This document shows, piece by piece, positions 2 to 24,581 of a stretch of 24,822 nucleotides of DNA. The stretch is from IMG/VR virus record IMGVR_UViG_3300026512_000057, positions 1 to 24,822 of that record. One strand, 5' to 3'. This stretch comes from a virus. The notes under the pieces are model-generated. The model was not told where the DNA came from, ran no database searches, and was given only the letters and a program-made list of their open reading frames with translations. Every line of letters starts with the position of its first letter. Position 1 is the stretch's first letter. A program made the translations under genes and the position numbers.

Positions 2-211
2 ATGAAAAAACAATATGAATATTATTCAAATAAAATAACTACTCTTACAGTTAGGGAAATGGCTGAAGTAGCTGGTGTAAGTGAGCAACTGATAAGACAA
101 TATAGAAATGGATTGACTTATCCTCGTTTACCTACTGCTGTGATATTAGAACAAAATTTTAAAATACCTTGCGAATATTGGATTATAAATCAAGAAAAAA
201 AAGGAAAGTAA
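2..211 (+). CDS. small helix-turn-helix regulator
   Basis: A 69-residue protein. Residues about 14-45 read as a helix-turn-helix, with TVREMAEVAGVSEQLIRQYR as the two helices. It resembles Cro/YdaS-type or XRE-like phage repressors, but I cannot name a family. The ATG lies one base inside the window, so neither its ribosome binding site nor a possible upstream start can be seen. The stop overlaps the ATG of the antirepressor gene (TAATG at 209-213), which implies translational coupling. It is probably a transcription regulator in the early or lysogeny control region. Its binding site is not known. Confidence 0.7.
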   Translation: MKKQYEYYSNKITTLTVREMAEVAGVSEQLIRQYRNGLTYPRLPTAVILEQNFKIPCEYWIINQEKKGK

Positions 212-1215
212 TGATTAAAATAATAAATATAAATAAAGAGATAATAGGAGCTGATACTGTAAATAGTGTAAATGCTAGGGATTTATGGGAAAAATTAGAG
301 ATAAAACAAGAATTTGCAAACTGGATTAAGGCTCAAATTAATAGTTTAGGTTTAGAAGAAAATATAGATTATGTTCGCTTTGACAAAAAAGTCAATCGTC
401 AAATATTAAAAGAATATATTACAACTTTAGATACTGCAAAACATATTTCTATGTCTTCAAGAACATTAAAAGGAAAGGAGGTAAGAAATTATTTTATAGA
501 AGTAGAAAAGGGTACTCAAAAAATGAGTACCCTTGATAATAACTTATCAAAAAAAGAATTATTTATAAAAGATTATTTAGCAAATACTGAATTTTCTAAA
601 ATATTACTTGACACTTTAGGAAAATCAGCGACTAGAAAATTGTATTTAAAATTTTTAGATAATGATGAAACAAAAAAAATAATAGCTAAAAAAACAAATC
701 CTTATAAAAATGATGAAATATTTATTTTATTAAATGAAAAAATAAATAATAAAGATATTGAATTTTTTAGTTCATTATTTGATAAATTGATTTTAGGCAT
801 AGAAAATCAAAAGGCTACTTTATCTTTAGAAAAAAAATTATCAATTTATACTAATGAACAATTATCATCTTTCTTTTTAAGGGAACTTAATCAAGGTGTT
901 TTTACAAATGAAACTTTAAAATGGTTTTCAAATATTTATGAAATTAAAAGTATAGGTAATTTTGGTCAATTTGGTTTATTTTGGAATAATATTTTTAAAA
1001 GTGATTCTAAAATAACAATTTTAAATCAAAATAAAAAAATAAATATGAGAATAAAGCTATTAGAATTTAATTCTTTAACTACTTCAAAAATATATTTAAA
1101 AGATATGGTTTGTACTTTAAAACTGGGTACAAAAACAACTTTAAGTGTAGAAAAAAATGAATATAAAGAGCTGATACGAAAATCTTTCGTATCAGGTCAA
1201 TATACAAAAATTTAA
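211..1215 (+). CDS. AntA/AntB-type antirepressor with a helicase-like C-terminal domain
   Basis: A 334-residue protein. Residues about 1-95 match the AntA/AntB antirepressor fold: an N-terminal ARDLWEKLEIKQEFANWI segment, then a pattern like LDTAKHISMSSRTLKGKEVRNYF. Family members are thought to relieve phage repression or act as DNA-binding regulators. Residues about 211-322 form a second domain that closely matches the C-terminus of the SF3 helicase at 3193-4998; the core is NQGVFTNETLKWFSNIYEI. I chose ATG 211 because AAGGAAA lies just upstream and the start overlaps the previous stop. An in-frame ATG at 169 would lie deep inside the upstream gene. The coding sequence carries two perfect inverted repeats (508-534 and 1171-1195). 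The antirepressor call is good; the role of the second domain is unknown. Confidence 0.8.
   Translation: MIKIININKEIIGADTVNSVNARDLWEKLEIKQEFANWIKAQINSLGLEENIDYVRFDKKVNRQILKEYITTLDTAKHISMSSRTLKGKEVRNYFIEVEKGTQKMSTLDNNLSKKELFIKDYLANTEFSKILLDTLGKSATRKLYLKFLDNDETKKIIAKKTNPYKNDEIFILLNEKINNKDIEFFSSLFDKLILGIENQKATLSLEKKLSIYTNEQLSSFFLRELNQGVFTNETLKWFSNIYEIKSIGNFGQFGLFWNNIFKSDSKITILNQNKKINMRIKLLEFNSLTTSKIYLKDMVCTLKLGTKTTLSVEKNEYKELIRKSFVSGQYTKI
508..534. repeat. perfect 11-bp inverted repeat inside the antirepressor gene
   Basis: AAGGGTACTCA (508-518) and TGAGTACCCTT (524-534) flank AAAAA. They fall in the linker between the AntA domain and the rest of the protein. A second perfect repeat follows at once: TTGATAA (533-539), TAAC, TTATCAA (544-550). 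The right half, AGTACCCTTGATA, recurs exactly at 24583-24595 in front of the Rha-like gene. It could be an operator or an RNA hairpin inside the message. There is no T-tract, so an intrinsic terminator is unlikely. Confidence 0.75.
1171..1195. repeat. perfect 11-bp inverted repeat at the 3' end of the antirepressor gene
   Basis: CTGATACGAAA (1171-1181) and TTTCGTATCAG (1185-1195) flank ATC. The repeat is in coding sequence, in the extension beyond the domain shared with the helicase and 18 nt before the stop codon. No T-run follows on either strand, so it is not a standard terminator. It could be an operator, an mRNA 3' stabiliser or processing hairpin, or a small palindromic insertion. Confidence 0.8.
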
Positions 1216-1223
1216 GAAGTTAT

Positions 1224-1670
1224 ATGTACTCAACAAATCAAGTAGCAACAATTTTAGAAGTAGATGATAGAACTGTAAGAAATTACATTTTAAAAGGTAA
1301 ATTGAAAGCTAAACTTGATGGTGGTAATTATGTAATCAGTATAAAAGATTTATGTGAGTTTGAAGATAACTTTTTTTATACAGATGAGAGATTTAAAAAA
1401 AGAGGTAAACGACTTGATGAAGAGAGTTTTAAAAATTTAGTTGATTTTGTTGATGCTGTTAAAAATATGGAATCACTAGAAGAGGTTATTAAAAAGTATC
1501 AAAAAGCAAATATTGAAATCCCTTCTTTAAAGGTTTATACGATTTATGAAAGAAATAAACAAATCAAATCTGACAAAAAAAAAGGTTTAACATATAAAGA
1601 ATTATCTGAAAAATATTTTTTATGTGAAAAATCTATATCAAATGTATTAAAAAATAAGGAGTTAAATTAA
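1224..1670 (+). CDS. two-HTH DNA-binding regulator (MerR/excisionase-like N-terminus)
   Basis: A 148-residue protein. Residues 1-50 look like a MerR/excisionase (HTH_17) domain: STNQVATILEVDDRTVRNYI is the HTH, followed by a GGNYVISIKDL wing. Residues about 118-146 form a second HTH (LTYKELSEKYFLCEKSISNV) of the kind at the C-terminus of Mor-type activators. It starts 8 nt after the antirepressor stop, with a weak AAGAAG site upstream. The arrangement suggests an early transcription regulator, activator or excisionase. With no integrase in the window, the excisionase role cannot be judged. The family is not identified beyond the HTH. Confidence 0.7.
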   Translation: MYSTNQVATILEVDDRTVRNYILKGKLKAKLDGGNYVISIKDLCEFEDNFFYTDERFKKRGKRLDEESFKNLVDFVDAVKNMESLEEVIKKYQKANIEIPSLKVYTIYERNKQIKSDKKKGLTYKELSEKYFLCEKSISNVLKNKELN

Positions 1671-1792
1671 TGTTTATGAATTTGTATCAACCAAATTATA
1701 TGCAAATTTATAAAATTATTTGTAAGACTATTGACAAAATAAAATTAAAAGAGTATAGTTCTATTAATACAAAGTTACAAAGTTACAAATAA
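1670..1792 (+). CDS. small 40-residue ORF, unknown
   Basis: The ATG overlaps the previous stop (TAATG at 1668-1672) and follows a strong AAGGAG at 1656-1661 with 8-nt spacing. The frame stays open for 40 codons through what would otherwise be an intergenic gap. The product is basic and Tyr/Ile/Lys-rich, starting MFMNLYQPNYMQIYKI. It has no recognisable domain and no clear membrane segment. The coupled start and ribosome binding site favour translation; the length and lack of a family keep confidence moderate. A promoter for the next gene lies inside it. Confidence 0.5.
   Translation: MFMNLYQPNYMQIYKIICKTIDKIKLKEYSSINTKLQSYK
1731..1759 (+). promoter_or_regulatory. sigma-70-type promoter
   Basis: TTGACA (1731-1736), a 17-bp spacer and TATAGT (1754-1759): a full -35 match and a five-of-six -10 match. 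The predicted start is near 1766, giving a leader of about 36 nt before the ATG at 1802. It would drive the small HTH gene and possibly the replication genes. Such good -35 boxes are uncommon in Campylobacterota promoters. Confidence 0.6.
1771..1786 (+). repeat. tandem AAAGTTAC repeat near the predicted transcription start
   Basis: Two adjacent copies of AAAGTTAC (1771-1778 and 1779-1786), preceded by TAC. They sit just after the predicted start of the 1731-1759 promoter and before the AAGGA site of the next gene. The GTTAC core recurs in the palindrome at 2013-2037, so this may be an operator. The copies also encode part of the small ORF. Confidence 0.45.
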
Positions 1793-1801
1793 GGAAATAA
1801 A

Positions 1802-2008
1802 ATGACTATATATAAATTCTTAGAAAAATATACAAAAGAAAATTTAGTACAAGAACCATTAAATATGAGTTCAACTTCATTAAGAAATTGGATAAGAGAA
1901 AATAGAGTTGAATTAGAAAATGAAAAGATAGTAAAATTCAAAAAGAAGTTAAATAGTTTGAATATTGATATTATTGATTCAGAGGGTTTATACAAAAAAA
2001 TTGCATAA
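1802..2008 (+). CDS. small HTH-like DNA-binding protein
   Basis: A 68-residue basic protein. The N-terminal half (FLEKYTKENLVQEPLNMSST, then SLRNWIREN) fits a helix-turn-helix; the C-terminal half is a charged helix. AAGGA at 1791-1795 lies 6 nt before the ATG. It has its own promoter (1731-1759) and is followed by a 10-bp palindrome carrying the same GTTAC core as the repeats in front of it, so autoregulation is an attractive inference. No family is recognised. Confidence 0.6.
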   Translation: MTIYKFLEKYTKENLVQEPLNMSSTSLRNWIRENRVELENEKIVKFKKKLNSLNIDIIDSEGLYKKIA

Positions 2009-2012
2009 AAAA

Positions 2013-2037
2013 AGGTAAGTTACAAAATAACTTACCT
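2013..2037. repeat. perfect 10-bp palindrome (operator or minus-strand terminator)
   Basis: AGGTAAGTTA (2013-2022), CAAAA, TAACTTACCT (2028-2037). An A-run precedes it on the plus strand, so on the minus strand the hairpin is followed by T7, which is terminator geometry for leftward transcription. No leftward gene is near. The GTTAC core is shared with the tandem repeats at 1771-1786. Confidence 0.6.
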
Positions 2038-2038
2038 G

Positions 2039-2094
2039 AATTTATAAGATGTTATATCTAGTTTGGTTGCTGGGATTATAGCCTCTTATAAATT
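2039..2094 (+). other. stem-loop in the leader of the primase gene
   Basis: AATTTATAAGA (2039-2049) and TCTTATAAATT (2084-2094) form a perfect 11-bp stem enclosing 34 nt. Inside, GGTT and AGCC (about 2064-2083) can pair. The element ends 35 nt before the primase ATG (ribosome binding site AAGGAG near 2116). The 2009-2129 gap holds this and the palindrome before it. It could be a cis-acting RNA leader or part of a replication origin. No known riboswitch is recognised. Confidence 0.45.
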
Positions 2095-2129
2095 AAAAGT
2101 CAATAATTTATAAAAAGGAGAGCTATAAA

Positions 2130-3203
2130 ATGAGTATAGAACTTACACTTGCTGAAGTAAAAGCAAAAATAGACATAATACAACTAGCCGAAAACTATGG
2201 TTTTGAACTTAAAAAACATAGTAATAGATACAGAGCTAGTAAAAACTTACTAAGAGATGAAAAAACAAGCTCTTTAGATTTTTTTGAAGATACACAAAAG
2301 TTTTATGACAGAGGTACTGCTACTGGTGGTGATGTGTTTGATTTAGTTCAAGCTATGGATAATCTATCTCAAAATGAAGCTATCAAAAAAGTAAAAGAAA
2401 TGGTTGGGGCTGATACTTATAGTGTAACTAAAAGAGAGTACACACCTACACCAGCTAAAAAAGAATCTAAAGAAATTGATTTTAATAAACTTCAATATAT
2501 AGCTACTAAAGAACTTCAAGCAAATAAATATAAAAAACCTTTAGAATATGAGATTGTAAAAGAGGGTAAAAATGGCTTTGTAGAAAGCAGAGAATTTAAA
2601 ATAAATGTAGGTTCTACTTACTCTAAACTTTTTGAAACTTCTACTTTTGATATAGAATACAAAACTAAACTAGATACTTTATTTTCTTCTATTATTGGTT
2701 ATAGTGAATTTTGGGATTCACCATCTATAATATTAAGAGATAGACAAAACAAAGTAGTTGATATAGTTGCTTATAGACCTAAATCTAAAGAAACTGGTGA
2801 AGAGATTAAAAGTATGAAATACTATTATAAAAATCAAAATAATAGAGGTGAAGAGTTTGTTTATCCTTTTGAAAAGTTAGTAAATCATATAGCAAATAGA
2901 GAAAAATATATTGTTGTTGGTGAGGGTCTTAAAAATAGTGTTAATGCTCTTTTATATAGTGTACCTTTTATATCTCTTGAATCTACTGGAAATATAAAAC
3001 ATATAAATCAAAAATTACTAGATTCTATAAATGATTTTAGAAAAAAAGGGTTCGGGTTAGTTACTGCTTTTGATGGTGATGAAGCTGGTGAAAAAGCTTA
3101 TCATGAATTTCTTTCTTTTACTGGGTTTGAAGCTGAAAATCTTTTTTCTTTTGATAGCAATATTGATTTTACTGATTATATAATGAGTTCAGATGAAGAA
3201 TAA
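2130..3203 (+). CDS. TOPRIM primase-like protein with a zinc-less CHC2-like N-terminus
   Basis: A 357-residue protein. Residues about 5-95 follow the layout of the DnaG CHC2 domain (KIDIIQLAENYGFELKK, then TATGGDVFDLVQAMDNLSQN), but the Cys/His zinc ligands are absent. Residues about 258-345 form a TOPRIM fold: Glu265 in VVGEGLKNS and the Asp315/Asp317 pair in AFDGDEAG would bind catalytic magnesium. It probably makes primers for phage DNA synthesis or works with the helicase. ATG 2130 has an AAAAAGGAGAG site upstream. Its 3' end overlaps the helicase gene by 11 nt, which suggests coupled production. The central region (about 100-255) is not recognised. Good for TOPRIM; moderate for active primase. 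Confidence 0.75.
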   Translation: MSIELTLAEVKAKIDIIQLAENYGFELKKHSNRYRASKNLLRDEKTSSLDFFEDTQKFYDRGTATGGDVFDLVQAMDNLSQNEAIKKVKEMVGADTYSVTKREYTPTPAKKESKEIDFNKLQYIATKELQANKYKKPLEYEIVKEGKNGFVESREFKINVGSTYSKLFETSTFDIEYKTKLDTLFSSIIGYSEFWDSPSIILRDRQNKVVDIVAYRPKSKETGEEIKSMKYYYKNQNNRGEEFVYPFEKLVNHIANREKYIVVGEGLKNSVNALLYSVPFISLESTGNIKHINQKLLDSINDFRKKGFGLVTAFDGDEAGEKAYHEFLSFTGFEAENLFSFDSNIDFTDYIMSSDEE

Positions 3204-4998
3204 AAAAATACAGAATATTAAAGATAAAGCTGTAAAAAATAAACCAGCTTTAGGTGATTATACTGAAGATATAAAACTATATCAAAAACAAATCAAATTT
3301 ATACAAAAAGAGCTTTTAGCTGGTGAAGATGATATAAGTGAGTTAAAGAAAAAATTCATTAAATCTAAAAGTGATACACTATCAAAACAAGATTTAAAAC
3401 CAGTAGAAAAGGCTAAAGAGATTTACAAAGCATTTATGAAATATATGATTGAATGTGTGAAACTAAATAGAATTGGTAAAGCTATTGTTATTGTAGATAA
3501 AGAACAAGGTAAATATTTAGAGATAGTTACTAAAAATAAAATGGGTAGTGATGAAACTGAAAGAATAATTGCACACCGTGAAAACATGGTTATTAGAAGC
3601 ATGATACAAAGTGAAGCTAAAGAACTTTTAAATAATGTTATTTCTACTGTTGATGAAACACAAATAATGAAATGGTTAAATCCATACTATAAAATATTTT
3701 CACCAAAAGCTAAAAAGATTGATAATGTTAATTTTAATGTATATACTCCAAATGGTTTTTTAGAAATTGATGTAAAAAACTGTATAAACTTAGATAACTT
3801 TGTAGATAATATTTTACCTACTAAATATCCTCATATAAATGCTTTACTTGATAACTTATCACCAAAGATAGAAGAGAAAAAATATATTATAAATTGGTTA
3901 TCTTATATTTTAAATACTTCAAGTAAAACTAGAAATGCTTTAGTATTTCTTGGTATTCAAGGTGGTGGTAAGGGTGTATTTCAACAAATTTTAGAGTATG
4001 CTTTACATGTAGACAACTGTTATACTGCTACAAATGAAGATATTAAAAGTGCATTTAATGGATATATTGAAAATAGAGTTTTTATCTTTTTTAATGAAAT
4101 AAAGGGTTCTTTTAGTGAGAGTTCTACACAAGCTGATAAAATCAAGCCGTTTATAACTGATTCGCATATATCACTAAATGATAAATATAAAAAACAAGTA
4201 TATATAGAAAATCATGCTAACTGTATGTTTTTTAGTAATCACGATTTACCTTTTCAAATTGAGGATAAAGATAGAAGATATTCAGTTATTAAAACAAATA
4301 ATAAAACTTTAGTTGATGTAGCAAAAGATAAATTTAGTATAACTATTGGAAAATTTATAAACGCCATTGAGAAAGAACGAGAATCATTTTTAATAGAAAT
4401 GAAGATGATCGAGTACAAAGAAGAGTTAGCTTTATCTTTACTGGATAATGAAGTAAAAAGAAAAATCAAAGAACAAACTAACACCGTTAAAGAAATTATA
4501 AAAGATAAGATAGTAGATAAAGATTATGCTTGGTTTGAAAAAACTATAAGCGATTTAATCGCTGGTTCTGAAGATGAAAAAATTGAAGATAAAAGAGTTA
4601 AAAAAGAGATTATAAATTCTGAAAATGGTGATAAGTCTGTTATTGATTTTGTTGAAATGTTTAAATTTACAAATGAAGAGTTTAAAAACTTTATGATAAA
4701 TGAAGTTAAACAAGGTGCTTTCACAAATGAAACTTTAAAATGGTTCACTAAAATCTATGATATACCAAATACACAAAGCCCACGACTGTTAGGTAACTTT
4801 TGGAATAGTATTATTGATGACCATTTTAGTTTTAATATTATTGATGGAGTAGATACAACAAAAATGAGATTAAAACTTATGGAAGTTGATAGAGCTACAT
4901 TAAATGAGGTTTCTATCCATGATAAAAAATATCGTTTAAAAGATGGAAGTAAAAAAACACTTGAAAGGGTGATTGATGATGAACAAATACCATTTTAG
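3193..4998 (+). CDS. SF3 replicative helicase (D5/DUF5906-like)
   Basis: A 601-residue protein. Walker A is GIQGGGKGVF (Lys near 260). Walker B is VFIFFNEI (Glu near 302). A sensor-type ANCMFFSNHDLPFQIEDKDRR follows near 337-357. This is the superfamily-3 ATPase pattern of phage D5/P4-type and NrS-1-type (DUF5906) helicases, which unwind the phage origin. Residues 1-200 are charged and unrecognised and show no archaeo-eukaryotic primase motif. Priming is probably done by the overlapping upstream TOPRIM gene. Residues about 489-598 form a C-terminal domain, perhaps a winged helix, closely matching the C-terminus of the antirepressor at 211-1215. No DNA polymerase is encoded in the window. Confidence 0.85.
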   Translation: MKNKKIQNIKDKAVKNKPALGDYTEDIKLYQKQIKFIQKELLAGEDDISELKKKFIKSKSDTLSKQDLKPVEKAKEIYKAFMKYMIECVKLNRIGKAIVIVDKEQGKYLEIVTKNKMGSDETERIIAHRENMVIRSMIQSEAKELLNNVISTVDETQIMKWLNPYYKIFSPKAKKIDNVNFNVYTPNGFLEIDVKNCINLDNFVDNILPTKYPHINALLDNLSPKIEEKKYIINWLSYILNTSSKTRNALVFLGIQGGGKGVFQQILEYALHVDNCYTATNEDIKSAFNGYIENRVFIFFNEIKGSFSESSTQADKIKPFITDSHISLNDKYKKQVYIENHANCMFFSNHDLPFQIEDKDRRYSVIKTNNKTLVDVAKDKFSITIGKFINAIEKERESFLIEMKMIEYKEELALSLLDNEVKRKIKEQTNTVKEIIKDKIVDKDYAWFEKTISDLIAGSEDEKIEDKRVKKEIINSENGDKSVIDFVEMFKFTNEEFKNFMINEVKQGAFTNETLKWFTKIYDIPNTQSPRLLGNFWNSIIDDHFSFNIIDGVDTTKMRLKLMEVDRATLNEVSIHDKKYRLKDGSKKTLERVIDDEQIPF

Positions 4999-5002
4999 GA
5001 GG
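4997..5002 (+). promoter_or_regulatory. orphan Shine-Dalgarno sequence
   Basis: A perfect AGGAGG overlaps the helicase stop codon (TAG at 4996-4998). No ATG, GTG or TTG follows at a usable distance; the next bases are ATAAAAAAACGG. It may be the remnant of a lost downstream gene or simply chance. Confidence 0.4.
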
Positions 5003-5017
5003 ATAAAAAAACGGTTT

Positions 5018-5045
5018 AAAGCATAAGTTGCTTTTTATAAAAAGC
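5018..5045 (+). repeat. two mutually exclusive hairpins
   Basis: AAAGCA (5018-5023) can pair with TGCTTT (5029-5034), and T5 at 5032-5036 gives a terminator-like end. Alternatively, GCTTTTTATAAAAAGC (5030-5045) is a perfect 16-nt palindrome that uses the same GCTTT. The two cannot form together, as in attenuator-type switches or AT-rich origin DNA. Function unknown. Confidence 0.5.
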
Positions 5046-5051
5046 TAACCT

Positions 5052-5103
5052 ATACAGATATAAAATCAAGTTTTGGCGAACTGGTGATTTTAAAGTTCTG
5101 TAT
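5052..5103 (+). ncRNA. long composite stem-loop, candidate structured RNA or origin hairpin
   Basis: Three nested stems share one axis. ATACAGA (5052-5058) pairs with TCTGTAT (5097-5103). AAAATCA (5062-5068) pairs with TGATTTT (5085-5091). AGTT (5069-5072) pairs with AACT (5079-5082), closing a TTGGCG loop. There is a small internal loop and a GG bulge. It lies in the 127-nt gap after the helicase and 22 nt before a small ORF. It is not a tRNA and matches no riboswitch I know. Cis-regulatory RNA, antisense target or replication hairpin are all possible. Confidence 0.5.
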
Positions 5104-5125
5104 TATAACTAAAAAAAGGTTTAAT

Positions 5126-5389: not shown

Positions 5390-5917
5390 ATGAATGATGT
5401 AATAAATGGTTTAAGCAACTGGAGAAAAAATAGAAATATGGATAATAAAGAATTTGTACTTGATGTAGAAGTATCAAATCTTTTAGAAGAGTGTTCAGAG
5501 TTTTTAAGAGCTGATACTGATTATGATAGGATAGATGCACTTTGTGATATATCTGTTTTTAGTATAAATGCTATGAAATATTTAGAAAAAATAGTTTTGG
5601 AAGAAATTACCTCTTATAGTAATAGTAGTATTGGTGGAATTATAACAAACATATCAAATATGTTTAGTAAGCATTTATATAGCTATGAAGATAGTCTTGT
5701 AAGAATTATAAAGCACTCTATGGGGTGTGTTGAAAATCTAGGATATGATTATAAAAAATGTATGCTAGAAACTATCAAAGAGATTAGCTCTAGGGAACAA
5801 TGTCCTATTCAAGCTAAAGAATGGAAAGAAAACGGTATAAGTGGTAAATGGCAAAAGAATAAAAATCAAGATAAATCTACACTATATAAAGCAAATTATG
5901 AAAGTTGTAAATTATGA
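5390..5917 (+). CDS. MazG-like nucleotide pyrophosphohydrolase
   Basis: A 175-residue helical protein. Residues about 28-63 carry the all-alpha NTP-PPase pattern: EVSNLLEECSEF supplies the paired acidic residues on helix 1, and DRIDALCDISVFSINAMKY the second Asp-containing helix. The C-terminus (GKWQKNKNQDKSTLYKANYE and CK) resembles the tail common in phage MazG-like proteins. Such enzymes hydrolyse (d)NTPs or alarmones to monophosphates, adjusting nucleotide pools or blunting host stress signalling during infection. AAGGAG precedes the ATG, and the next gene overlaps by 4 nt. Substrate unknown. Confidence 0.65.
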   Translation: MNDVINGLSNWRKNRNMDNKEFVLDVEVSNLLEECSEFLRADTDYDRIDALCDISVFSINAMKYLEKIVLEEITSYSNSSIGGIITNISNMFSKHLYSYEDSLVRIIKHSMGCVENLGYDYKKCMLETIKEISSREQCPIQAKEWKENGISGKWQKNKNQDKSTLYKANYESCKL

Positions 5918-6174
5918 TAATAACTTTTACTCAAACATTTACAAAAGATATAGGTGTTCAAAATGGAACTAAAGAAGATGTAATTAATGCTATAAATGAA
6001 ATGTACGATAGTGTAGGAAAAACAATTTTTGAAAAAACAAAAGAGTATCAACATACTACAATTACTGAAATAGATGGTGAAGAAGTCTTCATTGACTGGG
6101 AAGAAGGTCTTGAAAAAGTTAGTAATCAGGGAAGATATATAGTTTTAAATGGTGATGAATTAGTTGAAGATTAA
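5914..6174 (+). CDS. small acidic protein, unknown
   Basis: An 86-residue acidic protein that overlaps the MazG-like gene by ATGA. It has beta-rich ends around a helical middle (KEDVINAINEMYDSVGKTIF). No family recognised and no membrane segment. It is the last gene before the terminator-like hairpin at 6189 and the structural operon, so it probably belongs to the early or middle module. Confidence 0.6.
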   Translation: MIITFTQTFTKDIGVQNGTKEDVINAINEMYDSVGKTIFEKTKEYQHTTITEIDGEEVFIDWEEGLEKVSNQGRYIVLNGDELVED

Positions 6175-6188
6175 ACTTCTTTTTTAAA

Positions 6189-6226
6189 GGTTTAGCAAAA
6201 ATACTCTAAACCGTATATTCTTTTTT
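6189..6226 (+). terminator. weak intrinsic terminator between early and structural modules
   Basis: GGTTTAG (6189-6195) and CTAAACC (6206-6212) form a 7-bp stem with a 10-nt loop, followed after 8 nt by T6 (6221-6226). The gap between stem and T-run makes it imperfect. The 6175-6278 gap contains this hairpin and an AT-rich ATATAAAAAT near 6250 that could be a -10 box for the portal gene. No matching -35 is seen. Confidence 0.4.
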
Positions 6227-6278
6227 CCTCAACTTCTGTAATACTACAAGATATAAAAATATTTAGTAGGTTACAAAG

Positions 6279-7574
6279 TTGAAAAATAAACAACAACACA
6301 AAAAAAACTTTTCAAAATCTAAACAAACTCAAACTAAAGCTAGTGATGGATTTTCTAACATAGCTAAAGGTATTGGTGGCAAAAAAGATATTTTACAAAA
6401 TTTAGATTTTAAAAGAACCTCACTAAATCTAGCTAAAAACTATGAACTAGCTGAAGAGTTATATCTGTATAACTGGTTAGTAGGTAATATAGCTGATATT
6501 CCAGCTAATGAAGTAACTAGAGAATGGTGTGAGATAACTTCAGCTAATTCAGATGATGAGTTAAAATCAGTTTTAAAACTTCTAAAAGATTTACAAATCA
6601 AACAACAAATTAAAACGGCTCACGCTTACGCTGATTTATTTGGTGGTTGTGCTTTGTATATGGTTGTAAATGATGGAAATAGTCAAGATAAACCACTAAA
6701 TCTAAAAACTATAAAAAAGGGTTCATTTAAAAAACTTAGAGTTTTAGAACCAGCTCACTTAATACCAGTTATTACAAATCTTGAAGAGTCTGAATATTAT
6801 ACTTTGTTTGGTTCTACTGAAAATCTAACTATACACAAATCAAGACTTCTTATCTTTAGAGGTTTAGAACTTACACAAAATAAAAGAGTAGAACATAATT
6901 ATTGGGGTGGCTCAAAAGTACAAAGAAGTATAGAGCCTATTATCGCAAGTGATACAACTATAAACGCTATTGTAAATATGCTTACTGAAACTAATGTAAA
7001 TGTATATAAGATGGAGGGCTTAACTGATTTAGCTATTGATGACGCTGACGAGGACGCTATAAAAAGAATCCAAATCATAGACACTATGAAATCTTATCTA
7101 AATGCTATTGTACTTGATTCAAAAGATGATTTTGTAAAAAGAACAAATGATTTTAAAGATTTACATCAAATAGATGATAAAACATTGATTCGTGTAAGTG
7201 GTTCGGCTGAAATTCCAGCTACTTTACTTTTTGGCAAATCACCTGATGGACAAAATGCAACTGGTTCGGCTGACTTTAAAAACTTCTACAACCGTATAAA
7301 AAGAATCCAAATAGACAAAATAGAACCAAAACTTGAAACACTTTTAAAAGTTGCTTCATATTCATTATATGGAAATGATTTAGAAGAGGTTTCTATCGTA
7401 TGGAATCCACTAGAGCAAGAAACAAGAAAAGAGATAGCTGATACTTCAAAAGTTAAAGCTGATGAACTTAGTGTTTTAGTAAATTCTGGAATCCTTACAA
7501 CTGCTGAAGCAAAACAGAAACTAAAAAATAATAGTGCTGAATACTCTTTTTTAAAGGTTGAAGATGAAAAATAA
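6279..7574 (+). CDS. phage portal protein (DUF1073 family)
   Basis: A 431-residue protein. Its body matches the DUF1073/HI1409-type portals, with an early LYNWLVGNIADIPANEVTRE, the DLFGGCALYMV strand, and KSPDGQNATGSADFKNFYNR near residue 330. Portals form the dodecameric ring at the capsid vertex through which DNA is packed and ejected. The start is TTG, with AGTAGG (6266-6271) 7 nt upstream and no nearby in-frame ATG; the first 35 residues are Lys/Gln-rich. It opens the late operon. No terminase gene is present upstream, where it is normally found. Confidence 0.9.
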   Translation: MKNKQQHKKNFSKSKQTQTKASDGFSNIAKGIGGKKDILQNLDFKRTSLNLAKNYELAEELYLYNWLVGNIADIPANEVTREWCEITSANSDDELKSVLKLLKDLQIKQQIKTAHAYADLFGGCALYMVVNDGNSQDKPLNLKTIKKGSFKKLRVLEPAHLIPVITNLEESEYYTLFGSTENLTIHKSRLLIFRGLELTQNKRVEHNYWGGSKVQRSIEPIIASDTTINAIVNMLTETNVNVYKMEGLTDLAIDDADEDAIKRIQIIDTMKSYLNAIVLDSKDDFVKRTNDFKDLHQIDDKTLIRVSGSAEIPATLLFGKSPDGQNATGSADFKNFYNRIKRIQIDKIEPKLETLLKVASYSLYGNDLEEVSIVWNPLEQETRKEIADTSKVKADELSVLVNSGILTTAEAKQKLKNNSAEYSFLKVEDEK

Positions 7575-8730
7575 AAAACTATTTGGAAGAGATAACAACT
7601 TAACTATTTTAGATAAAAAGTTAAATGAAAACGGTTATCTAGTTGTAAAATGTATTTTTGCAAGAACTGGAATACAAGAGCGTTACGGTGCTGAAATAAA
7701 TGAAGATTTTGAAGCTACTAAACTATATAAAGAATACCGTTCACCTGAAGAGGTTTTTAAACCTGAAGTAATTGAAGCATTTAAAAATATAGTTATCACA
7801 AACGACCACCCTCACCAACTGCTAAACTCACAAAACACAAAATTCCACGCTATCGGCTTTGTATCTTCACCAGTTCAAGTAGTAGATGATTCATATTTAG
7901 AGTGTGAGATAACTATATATGATGATTCTACTATTGAAGATATACAAGCTGGTAAGGTGGAGCTTTCGGCTGGATATTTATACAACCTTGAAGTTGTTGA
8001 AAATCCAAACTATGACTATATCCAAACGGATATTAAACCAAATCATATAGCTATTGTAAAGGCTGGGCGTTGTGGCTCTAAATGTTCTTTAGCTATTGAT
8101 AACAAACCAAAACTAAATAAAGGAAAATGTATGAAAGTAATATTTAAAAGAGTGTTGCCTGATGGAACTGAAGAAATCGTTTCTGAAGTTGAAGTTGAAA
8201 ATGAAGAGTTAGCTAAAAATCTTCAAGGTGTAGCTGATATTTTACATGAAGCTACTAAAACTGTAAAAGCAAATGATGAAGATGAGATTAAAGCTAAAGA
8301 TGATGAGATTGAAGCTTTAAAAACTGAATCAAAAACAAAAGATGAAACTATTGATAAGCTACAAGCTGATATAGACACAAACAAAGGTAAAGAGGTAGCT
8401 ACTGATTCTAAAATAGTTTTAGCAATGGCTACTGATTTAGCTAGTGTTATGATGGTAGCTAAAGATAGTGGTATTGGGTGTGTTGGTAAAGATAGCTTAT
8501 CTATTAAAAAAGAGGTTATCGCTAAGTATCAACCTGATTTAGATTTAACTGGTAAATCTGATGAGTATGTAGGTTATGCGTTTGATAATGTTGCTTCACA
8601 ACTTAAAAATGCTGATGATTCTTATCTTAAAGGGTTAGATTTAAAACCAACACCAGCTTTAGATGAAGCTCAAAAAGAAGTAGTTGAAGCAAAAAATAAA
8701 TTTGAAGAAAAATTTGGAGGTAATCAATAA
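7564..8730 (+). CDS. head maturation protease (DUF2213) fused to a scaffold domain
   Basis: A 388-residue protein. Residues about 25-180 are the DUF2213 protease-like domain, with NDHP (near 80), ELSAGY (near 133) and PNHIAIV...GRCG (near 159-171). Residues about 190-388 form an acidic, Lys/Glu-rich coiled coil (about 235-275) and a helical tail, as expected of a capsid scaffold. I chose ATG 7564 because AAAGG at 7553-7557 then sits 6 nt away; the in-frame TTG at 7558 abuts it. It overlaps the portal gene by 11 nt. An internal ATG at 8131 with its own ribosome binding site may yield the scaffold alone. Confidence 0.85.
   Translation: MKNKKLFGRDNNLTILDKKLNENGYLVVKCIFARTGIQERYGAEINEDFEATKLYKEYRSPEEVFKPEVIEAFKNIVITNDHPHQLLNSQNTKFHAIGFVSSPVQVVDDSYLECEITIYDDSTIEDIQAGKVELSAGYLYNLEVVENPNYDYIQTDIKPNHIAIVKAGRCGSKCSLAIDNKPKLNKGKCMKVIFKRVLPDGTEEIVSEVEVENEELAKNLQGVADILHEATKTVKANDEDEIKAKDDEIEALKTESKTKDETIDKLQADIDTNKGKEVATDSKIVLAMATDLASVMMVAKDSGIGCVGKDSLSIKKEVIAKYQPDLDLTGKSDEYVGYAFDNVASQLKNADDSYLKGLDLKPTPALDEAQKEVVEAKNKFEEKFGGNQ
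8121..8133 (+). promoter_or_regulatory. internal ribosome binding site and start for a nested scaffold protein
   Basis: AGGA (8121-8124), 6 nt, then an in-frame ATG (8131-8133) at Met190 of the protease-scaffold protein, exactly where the protease domain ends and the scaffold region begins. Translation from here would give a 199-residue scaffold ending at 8730. Nested scaffold genes are established in lambda (C/Nu3). Use of this start is inference. Confidence 0.55.
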
Positions 8731-23305: not shown

Positions 23306-23315
23306 TTCTTACTTT
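23291..23315. terminator. bidirectional terminator hairpin between convergent genes
   Basis: AAAGTAAGA (23291-23299) and TCTTACTTT (23307-23315) form a 9-bp perfect stem with a 7-nt loop. It spans the stop codons of the 3TM holin gene (plus) and the HNH gene (minus), which are only 3 nt apart. T-rich sequence follows on the plus strand; the minus strand has only a short T-run. It is well placed to insulate late from leftward transcription. Confidence 0.65.
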
Positions 23316-24187
23316 CTATTCTTTACTTTTCTCTTTTCCCACTTTTCAGGTTGAAGATTAGATTTATGTAAATTTTCTTCAGCTGTTAAAATCTGTAAAT
23401 TTGCTAATACATGAAGCCCCACTGGGTCGGTTGGTTTTTGTGGTACAAGTGGATATACATGATCGATATGATGTTGAATATTTGTTTTTTTAGTTAATTC
23501 AATAGCTTTTTTATAAAGTGCTTCAATATCCTTTTTTTGTATATCTATCCATGGTGGAGTACATTGTAATTTTTTAGCTCTTCTTTTTTCTTTTAGATAT
23601 TTAACTTTTTCAAGGTTATTTAATCTCCATATTCTATATTCAAGTCGTTTTTTTTCTAAATTTCTTTGTCTATAATCTCTACTTATTTTTAATCTTTTTT
23701 CATAATTATTTTTATTCCATTGTTTATTATGCTCTCTCCTCAGCTCTTTGTTATTGTCTTTCCACTTTTTACTAGCTTTTAATCGTTCTTCCCTTGTATT
23801 GTCATAATATATTTTATTAGCTTTAATTATCTTTTCTTTATTTTCTGCTTTATATTTTTTATGCCTAATTTTCTCTTTTTCTTTATTCTTTTCACGATAC
23901 AATCTATCAGCTTCAGCTAGTTTTTCCTTATTTTCTGCTTTATATTTTTTTCTATAACTTTTTATTTTTTCCTTATTCCTTTTTCTGTATTCTTTAGCTT
24001 TATCTTTATTTTGTTCATTATATTTTTTATTATATTCTTTAGTTTTGTTTTTATTTAGCTCTCTGTATTTTTTATCTCTAATCTTAGAGCATTTTTTACA
24101 CTCTGTACGATACCCATCTTTACTAGCTTTTTGTTTATAAAATTCAGAAAAATCTTTTTCTATTTTACATCCACTACATACTTTCAT
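23309..24187 (-). CDS. HNH endonuclease with a long Lys-rich repeat region
   Basis: A 292-residue protein. An N-terminal zinc-finger-like module has Cys4/Cys7 and Cys30/Cys33. Residues about 40-215 are a very basic run of roughly 13-residue units of the form YRxxNKEKxK, likely one long helix. The HNH core is near 239-277 (HHIDHVYPLVPQ, then LHVLANLQILTAEENLHKSN), which would bind a metal and cut DNA. HNH proteins in phages may be free-standing homing nucleases or help packaging. Its ATG overlaps the Rha-like gene by 14 nt. Good for HNH; role unresolved. Confidence 0.8.
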   Translation of the reverse strand: MKVCSGCKIEKDFSEFYKQKASKDGYRTECKKCSKIRDKKYRELNKNKTKEYNKKYNEQNKDKAKEYRKRNKEKIKSYRKKYKAENKEKLAEADRLYREKNKEKEKIRHKKYKAENKEKIIKANKIYYDNTREERLKASKKWKDNNKELRREHNKQWNKNNYEKRLKISRDYRQRNLEKKRLEYRIWRLNNLEKVKYLKEKRRAKKLQCTPPWIDIQKKDIEALYKKAIELTKKTNIQHHIDHVYPLVPQKPTDPVGLHVLANLQILTAEENLHKSNLQPEKWEKRKVKNRK

Positions 24188-24581
24188 GATATAATTCTTT
24201 TATATTTTTATCATTGATGATTATGTTAGCTATTTTAAAATACTCTTTGTATCTCTCATAGCTGCTTATATTTGCATTTTCTTTTTTAAAGGTTACAAAG
24301 ATACTAATAATACTTTGATGTAGCTCTTGTAGTGTTTCTGACTGTTTTAGATAAGTAAACAAAAGATATATTTGTCTTTCATTTAGTAAGCATATTTTAG
24401 GATTAGATTTTACCAGTCTTAAAAAGCCTAATTTTTTAAACTTCTTTTTTCTAGTAGTGATTATATTGATTAATTCAGATATATCTTCATTTAATATTTT
24501 AGATATTATCTCTATTGATAATACTGGTGTATCATCAAAAACTTTAATTTGATTTTTTAGATTATTTGGTATAATTTCCAT
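24174..24581 (-). CDS. Rha-like phage regulatory protein
   Basis: A 135-residue protein. VLSIEIISKILNEDISELIN and then CLLNERQIYLLFTYLKQSET (about 65-83) fit the Rha family, whose signature is an LNERQ-x-LL-x-TYLRNS helix. Rha proteins are phage regulators, some of which block growth in certain hosts. AAGGG lies 6 nt before the ATG and is itself part of an operator-like repeat. It overlaps the HNH gene, so the two are co-transcribed leftward. Confidence 0.75.
   Translation of the reverse strand: MEIIPNNLKNQIKVFDDTPVLSIEIISKILNEDISELINIITTRKKKFKKLGFLRLVKSNPKICLLNERQIYLLFTYLKQSETLQELHQSIISIFVTFKKENANISSYERYKEYFKIANIIINDKNIKELYHESM

Follow-up and report, generated by a model that had tools for sequence, protein, structure and literature searches.

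A putative phage antirepressor shares the C-terminal tail of the phage's own SF3 replicative helicase

Antirepressors of the AntA/AntB type can combine an N-terminal AntA domain (PF08346) with a C-terminal KilAC domain (PF03374); for instance, an AntA protein of Arcobacter sp. LC1 (L011) ends in a KilAC domain recognized with E=1.2e-26. Tail domains are also widespread among helicases (PMC10516667). In the NrS-1 PrimPol-helicase (PDB 6k9c/6lrb), a DUF5906 core is followed by an NrS1-pol-like tail (PF22762). Winged-helix tails are described for C962R and for the P4 origin-binding domain in PMC9611036 and PMC10516667, while the vaccinia D5 tail has a weak winged-helix resemblance (PMC9611036, PMC10516667) and the fold of the NrS-1 tail differs from the winged-helix tail of C962R (PMC10516667). 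In the phage P4 alpha protein, the origin-binding winged helix lies C-terminally in the replication helicase-primase, binds the origin and, according to the title of reference 43 of PMC10516667, is regulated by homo- and heterodimerization.

Here, we describe a phage in which an AntA protein and an SF3 helicase have a tail in common. The window, i.e. the stretch of DNA that was analysed, comprises 24,822 bases and is a whole IMG/VR virus record. The viral host is probably an Arcobacter-like bacterium because the closest AntA domains are found in an Arcobacter MAG and relatives of the helicase were found in Campylobacterota. The left part of the window encodes the following proteins and domains:

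2-211, plus strand: Cro-like small HTH protein of 69 aa (Pfam HTH_3, E=1.7e-6), encoded upstream of the AntA gene
211-1215, plus strand: ORF with ATG at 211 for the AntA antirepressor-type protein with a helicase-type tail, 334 aa (P0001)
268-465, plus strand: AntA domain, residues 20-85 (Pfam PF08346, E=2.1e-20)
1224-1670, plus strand: HTH_17/excisionase-like regulator (Pfam HTH_17, E=1.6e-8), adjoining the AntA gene
2130-3203, plus strand: DnaG-type primase, zinc ribbon and Toprim-like (PF01807, E=6e-10; TIGR01391, E=8e-13)
3193-4998, plus strand: SF3 replicative helicase of 601 aa (P0002; DUF5906, E=1.4e-20), directly after the primase gene
3949-4278, plus strand: AAA+/SF3 core of the helicase, DUF5906, residues 253-362 (Pfam)

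The AntA domain scores 73.5 bits, above the curated PF08346 cut-off of 27, and the N-terminal part (residues 1-114) is 65% identical to that of the L011 protein; we therefore regard the 334-aa protein as a putative antirepressor-type regulator of lysogeny. However, while the L011 protein ends in KilAC, the window protein has no match to KilAC in a Pfam search and ends in a helicase tail. The DUF5906 core of the helicase scores 74.5 bits, above the curated cut-off of 27.6, the protein contains GIQGGGKG as a GxxGxGKG Walker A motif and DRRY as a DRR arginine-finger-like motif, and among solved structures the closest is that of the helicase portion of the PrimPol from phage NrS-1 (6k9c, E=3e-23). 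The two helicases have the same SF3 core followed by a tail in the same order, but the window tail is longer than that of NrS-1 and is common to an antirepressor. The segments that the two window proteins share are as follows:

637-1143, plus strand: helicase-type tail of the AntA protein, residues 143-311 (BLASTP to P0002 residues 411-590)
841-1143, plus strand: shared C-terminal domain, AntA copy, predicted by a low-confidence model to form helix-helix-helix and strands
4423-4962, plus strand: helicase tail common to the AntA protein, residues 411-590 (BLASTP)
4657-4962, plus strand: shared C-terminal domain, helicase copy (sequence comparison with the AntA copy)

The C-terminal tail is homologous in the AntA protein and the helicase. 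AntA residues 143-311 align with helicase residues 411-590 with 33% identity (BLASTP, E=1e-22), and when the AntA tail was compared by profile with two helicase tails, i.e. that of its own phage and that of a related phage (L035), P was 1e-20. An earlier note, made from the letters alone, had aligned residues ~211-322 with ~489-598 and counted 14 of 19 identical residues in the core; the alignment and the count are borne out, but the homology starts ~70 residues earlier, behind the AAA+ core. A search of the record with the helicase domain recovered only the domain itself and the AntA copy. The shared tail of ~170 residues comprises a helical segment right behind the SF3 motor, with the pattern LDNE-K--I---TN ... 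KD--F, and then a domain of ~100 residues, and the best-conserved stretch, QG-FTN-TL-WF--Y, is common to the AntA protein and both helicase copies. The AntA tail is more basic (31 K+R and 21 D+E) than the helicase tail (32 and 38). Its coding sequence (637-1212) is also more AT-rich, with GC 0.18 and GC3 0.08 compared to 0.26 and 0.16 for the helicase tail.

In profile searches, the tail had no significant match in Pfam, PHROG or NCBIfam, in agreement with the earlier statement that it belongs to no named family, and searches of the PDB returned nothing meaningful. PF22762 did not match the window tails (P0009, P0010 and P0011) at E up to 10, while it matched NrS-1 itself at 1.6e-65. The compact tails of NrS-1-type helicases were then aligned and compared with the window tail profiles using hhalign. 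The three-tail profile scored 30.5 (P=0.00026), the AntA tail on its own 26.2 (P=0.0011) and the helicase tails without it 24.9 (P=0.0023), in each case more than any of 100 column shuffles. Because the hhalign probability is <50% and the alignment is best in the helical segment, we take this comparison as support rather than proof of a weak link to NrS-1-type PrimPol helicase tails, the nearest Pfam family being PF22762. AlphaFold models, which had been proposed for comparing the folds, were made of the tails from three sequences and have three helices followed by strands in both cases, but with pLDDT of 46 and 42 they are too poor for fold assignment. Fold searches with these models gave nothing significant; the non-significant matches of the second model were mostly forkhead winged helices (E at least 0.6). 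The predicted secondary structure is compatible with the winged helix that had been considered for the shared tail, and the tail may have this fold.

Behind the shared tail, the helicase ends in a short extension:

4975-4995, plus strand: C-terminal tip of the helicase, DDEQIPF, similar to the C-terminal tip of SSB

This tip is absent from the sequence of the AntA copy. The L035 helicase ends in SKEIPF (6958-6975), and an Arcobacter SSB in genome G001 ends in DEDIPF. In a third phage (L036), the gene that follows the primase encodes a different ATPase in place of the SF3 helicase (5600-7843; DUF927, E=3e-25), and this unrelated protein in the corresponding position ends in TDEIPF. ORFs ending in PF are rare in the compared loci (12 of 1,050). 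The C-terminal tip of SSB binds DnaG and other proteins (PMC5872125), and the ..IPF tips of the three replication ATPases may mimic the SSB tail and recruit primase or other SSB-binding proteins.

Comparison with the two related phages suggests where the tail came from. L035, which was found by a search with the primase (59% identical), has the gene order small HTH gene, HTH_17 gene, primase and helicase; its helicase is 50% identical to that of the window and has the tail, and its record contains no AntA protein. Both L035 and L036, the latter related to the window through its portal protein, have an ORF similar to the Cro-like ORF in the same place and an orthologue of the HTH_17 regulator (47% and 42%, respectively, by tblastn). 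In L035 the HTH_17 ORF begins directly after the Cro-like ORF, and L036 has the same junction without AntA; the AntA gene is thus an additional gene that separates the Cro-like and HTH_17 genes in the window. The relatives of the AntA protein have KilAC or ORF6C at their C-termini, and AntA proteins overall freely exchange C-terminal modules, including KilAC, ORF6C, HNH with a DNA-binding tail, and coiled coils. None of ~28 AntA proteins from 397 Campylobacterota genomes has the tail seen in the window, and the fusion in the window is the one case in this survey. Because the L035 helicase has the tail without an AntA gene, and because other AntA proteins have unrelated tails, the tail was most likely native to the helicase and then captured by the AntA gene. 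We infer this direction, and a single origin, from few genomes. No tail homologues were found in viral contigs scanned with the domain, the pair alignment and the three-tail alignment, in phages and plasmids searched by tblastn, or in Arcobacteraceae genomes. Matches of the pair profile in Campylobacterota reached E only near 0.001 over the 397 genomes, several of them in frames with stops, and were attributed to chance. An ORF in L005 (9123-9476) matched the tail profile with E=0.0003 over 59 helical columns only and was rejected as it does not have the conserved core.

Based on these comparisons, we suggest a model for the function of the captured tail. In this model, the complete post-motor tail of a DUF5906/SF3 helicase of the phage lineage would have taken the place of the usual C-terminal module of the antirepressor (KilAC, ORF6C or others). 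This tail would be the DNA- or partner-contacting module of the helicase, probably winged-helix-like, and would give the AntA protein the binding specificity of the helicase. The AntA protein would then occupy the helicase target, i.e. the origin region, or pair with the helicase tail, and the induction decision would thereby be tied to replication start. We infer that the most likely function of the tail is that of a DNA- or partner-binding module directing the antirepressor to the helicase target or to the helicase, and we tentatively favour the reading that the AntA protein acts there to couple induction to replication. The further step, that one phage module sends induction decision and replication start to the same origin or partner as a built-in switch, seems to us rather doubtful. 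The AntA and helicase genes lie few genes apart in the same phage. P4 alpha is the mechanistic analogue that we propose; no sequence match to it was found for the window tail, and a winged-helix fold of this tail is putative. The intergenic gaps named in the earlier note (2009-2129 and 4999-5125) do not contain an iteron-like repeat array that would mark an origin, and the specificity of the two tails may have diverged because they differ in charge and are only 38% identical. If the tails do share a target, they would connect the lysis-lysogeny decision directly and physically with replication and would help to explain the role of the C-terminal domains of DUF5906/SF3 helicases, which are poorly understood. 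Swapping of C-terminal modules by antirepressors is already known, but in the open-access literature searched we found no report of an AntA-helicase fusion or of an antirepressor that ends in the tail of the replication helicase from the same phage.

Plain domain shuffling is nearly as likely as a role of the tail at a shared target or in heterodimers. Here, the tail would be a convenient DNA-binding or oligomerization module that sits in the KilAC slot and, having diverged, is functionally unconnected with both helicase and origin. This quite plausible alternative agrees with the free exchange of C-terminal modules among AntA proteins and with two tails that are only 38% identical and of opposite net charge, but it does not account for a most conserved part that is common to the AntA protein and both helicase copies, or for the presence of donor-type and recipient proteins within the same phage, few genes apart. 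Alternatively, the AntA tail could act as an inhibitor or decoy that makes dead-end contacts with a helicase, either that of its own phage or that of a related competitor, and so limits copy number or excludes superinfection. The AntA copy has neither the motor nor the SSB-like tip, a basic AntA tail and an acidic helicase tail could attract each other, and winged-helix heterodimerization is described as a means of regulation in P4 (title of reference 43 of PMC10516667). However, in the related vaccinia D5 helicase it is the collar and AAA+ domains that form the hexamer ring, and the C-terminal domains are partly disordered (PMC9611036). We consider a decoy unlikely.

A recent gene conversion or duplication inside this phage, without function, is far less probable still. 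The earlier note had suggested a duplication or gene conversion within the phage because of two identical words in the AntA and helicase genes:

904-926, plus strand: 23-nt word in the AntA gene, identical to 4723-4745
4723-4745, plus strand: 23-nt word in the helicase gene, identical to 904-926

The identity is real, and the surrounding 26-base pattern occurs twice in the window and in 0 of 100 shuffles. Yet, with amino acids and codon usage taken into account, such a run has P=0.026, as 2.6% of simulated synonymous recodings contain one. Identical residues have identical codons in 26 of 38 cases, where codon usage alone predicts 23.9; the words are therefore not strong evidence for gene conversion. 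Moreover, the AntA protein and its own helicase are identical at 38 of 104 residues, as low as the helicases of the two phages (38 of 100), with 28 of 99 for the AntA protein and the L035 helicase. Between the tails, identity is 0.63 at second codon positions and 0.47 at third positions, compared to 0.39 by chance. With synonymous sites near chance, a recent duplication or conversion is unnecessary, and because second positions are best kept, third positions are near chance and codon identity is at the expected level, the tails appear to be old and selected as protein. In addition, the orthologous L035 helicase keeps the tail in the absence of an AntA partner.

AntA proteins with an HNH nuclease and a tail weakly similar to RFX, Pox_D5 and the C-terminal domains of phage primases were also found in the Campylobacterota genome G307, at 739-1797 of L095 and 8864-9910 of L099, both on the minus strand. 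The L095 protein (P0012) resembles the window AntA protein in having AntA and a predicted DNA-binding tail, but has the nuclease between them, and the window tail profile does not match its tail. The G307 proteins may represent a second case, independent of the first, of a helicase-type tail on an antirepressor. At the right end of the window, two overlapping genes on the minus strand (24174-24581 and 23309-24187) are without significant Pfam matches. By eye, the former resembles a Rha/antirepressor-type fragment, and the latter is rich in lysine, contains repeated stretches similar to KENKEK and has an HNH-like C-terminus.
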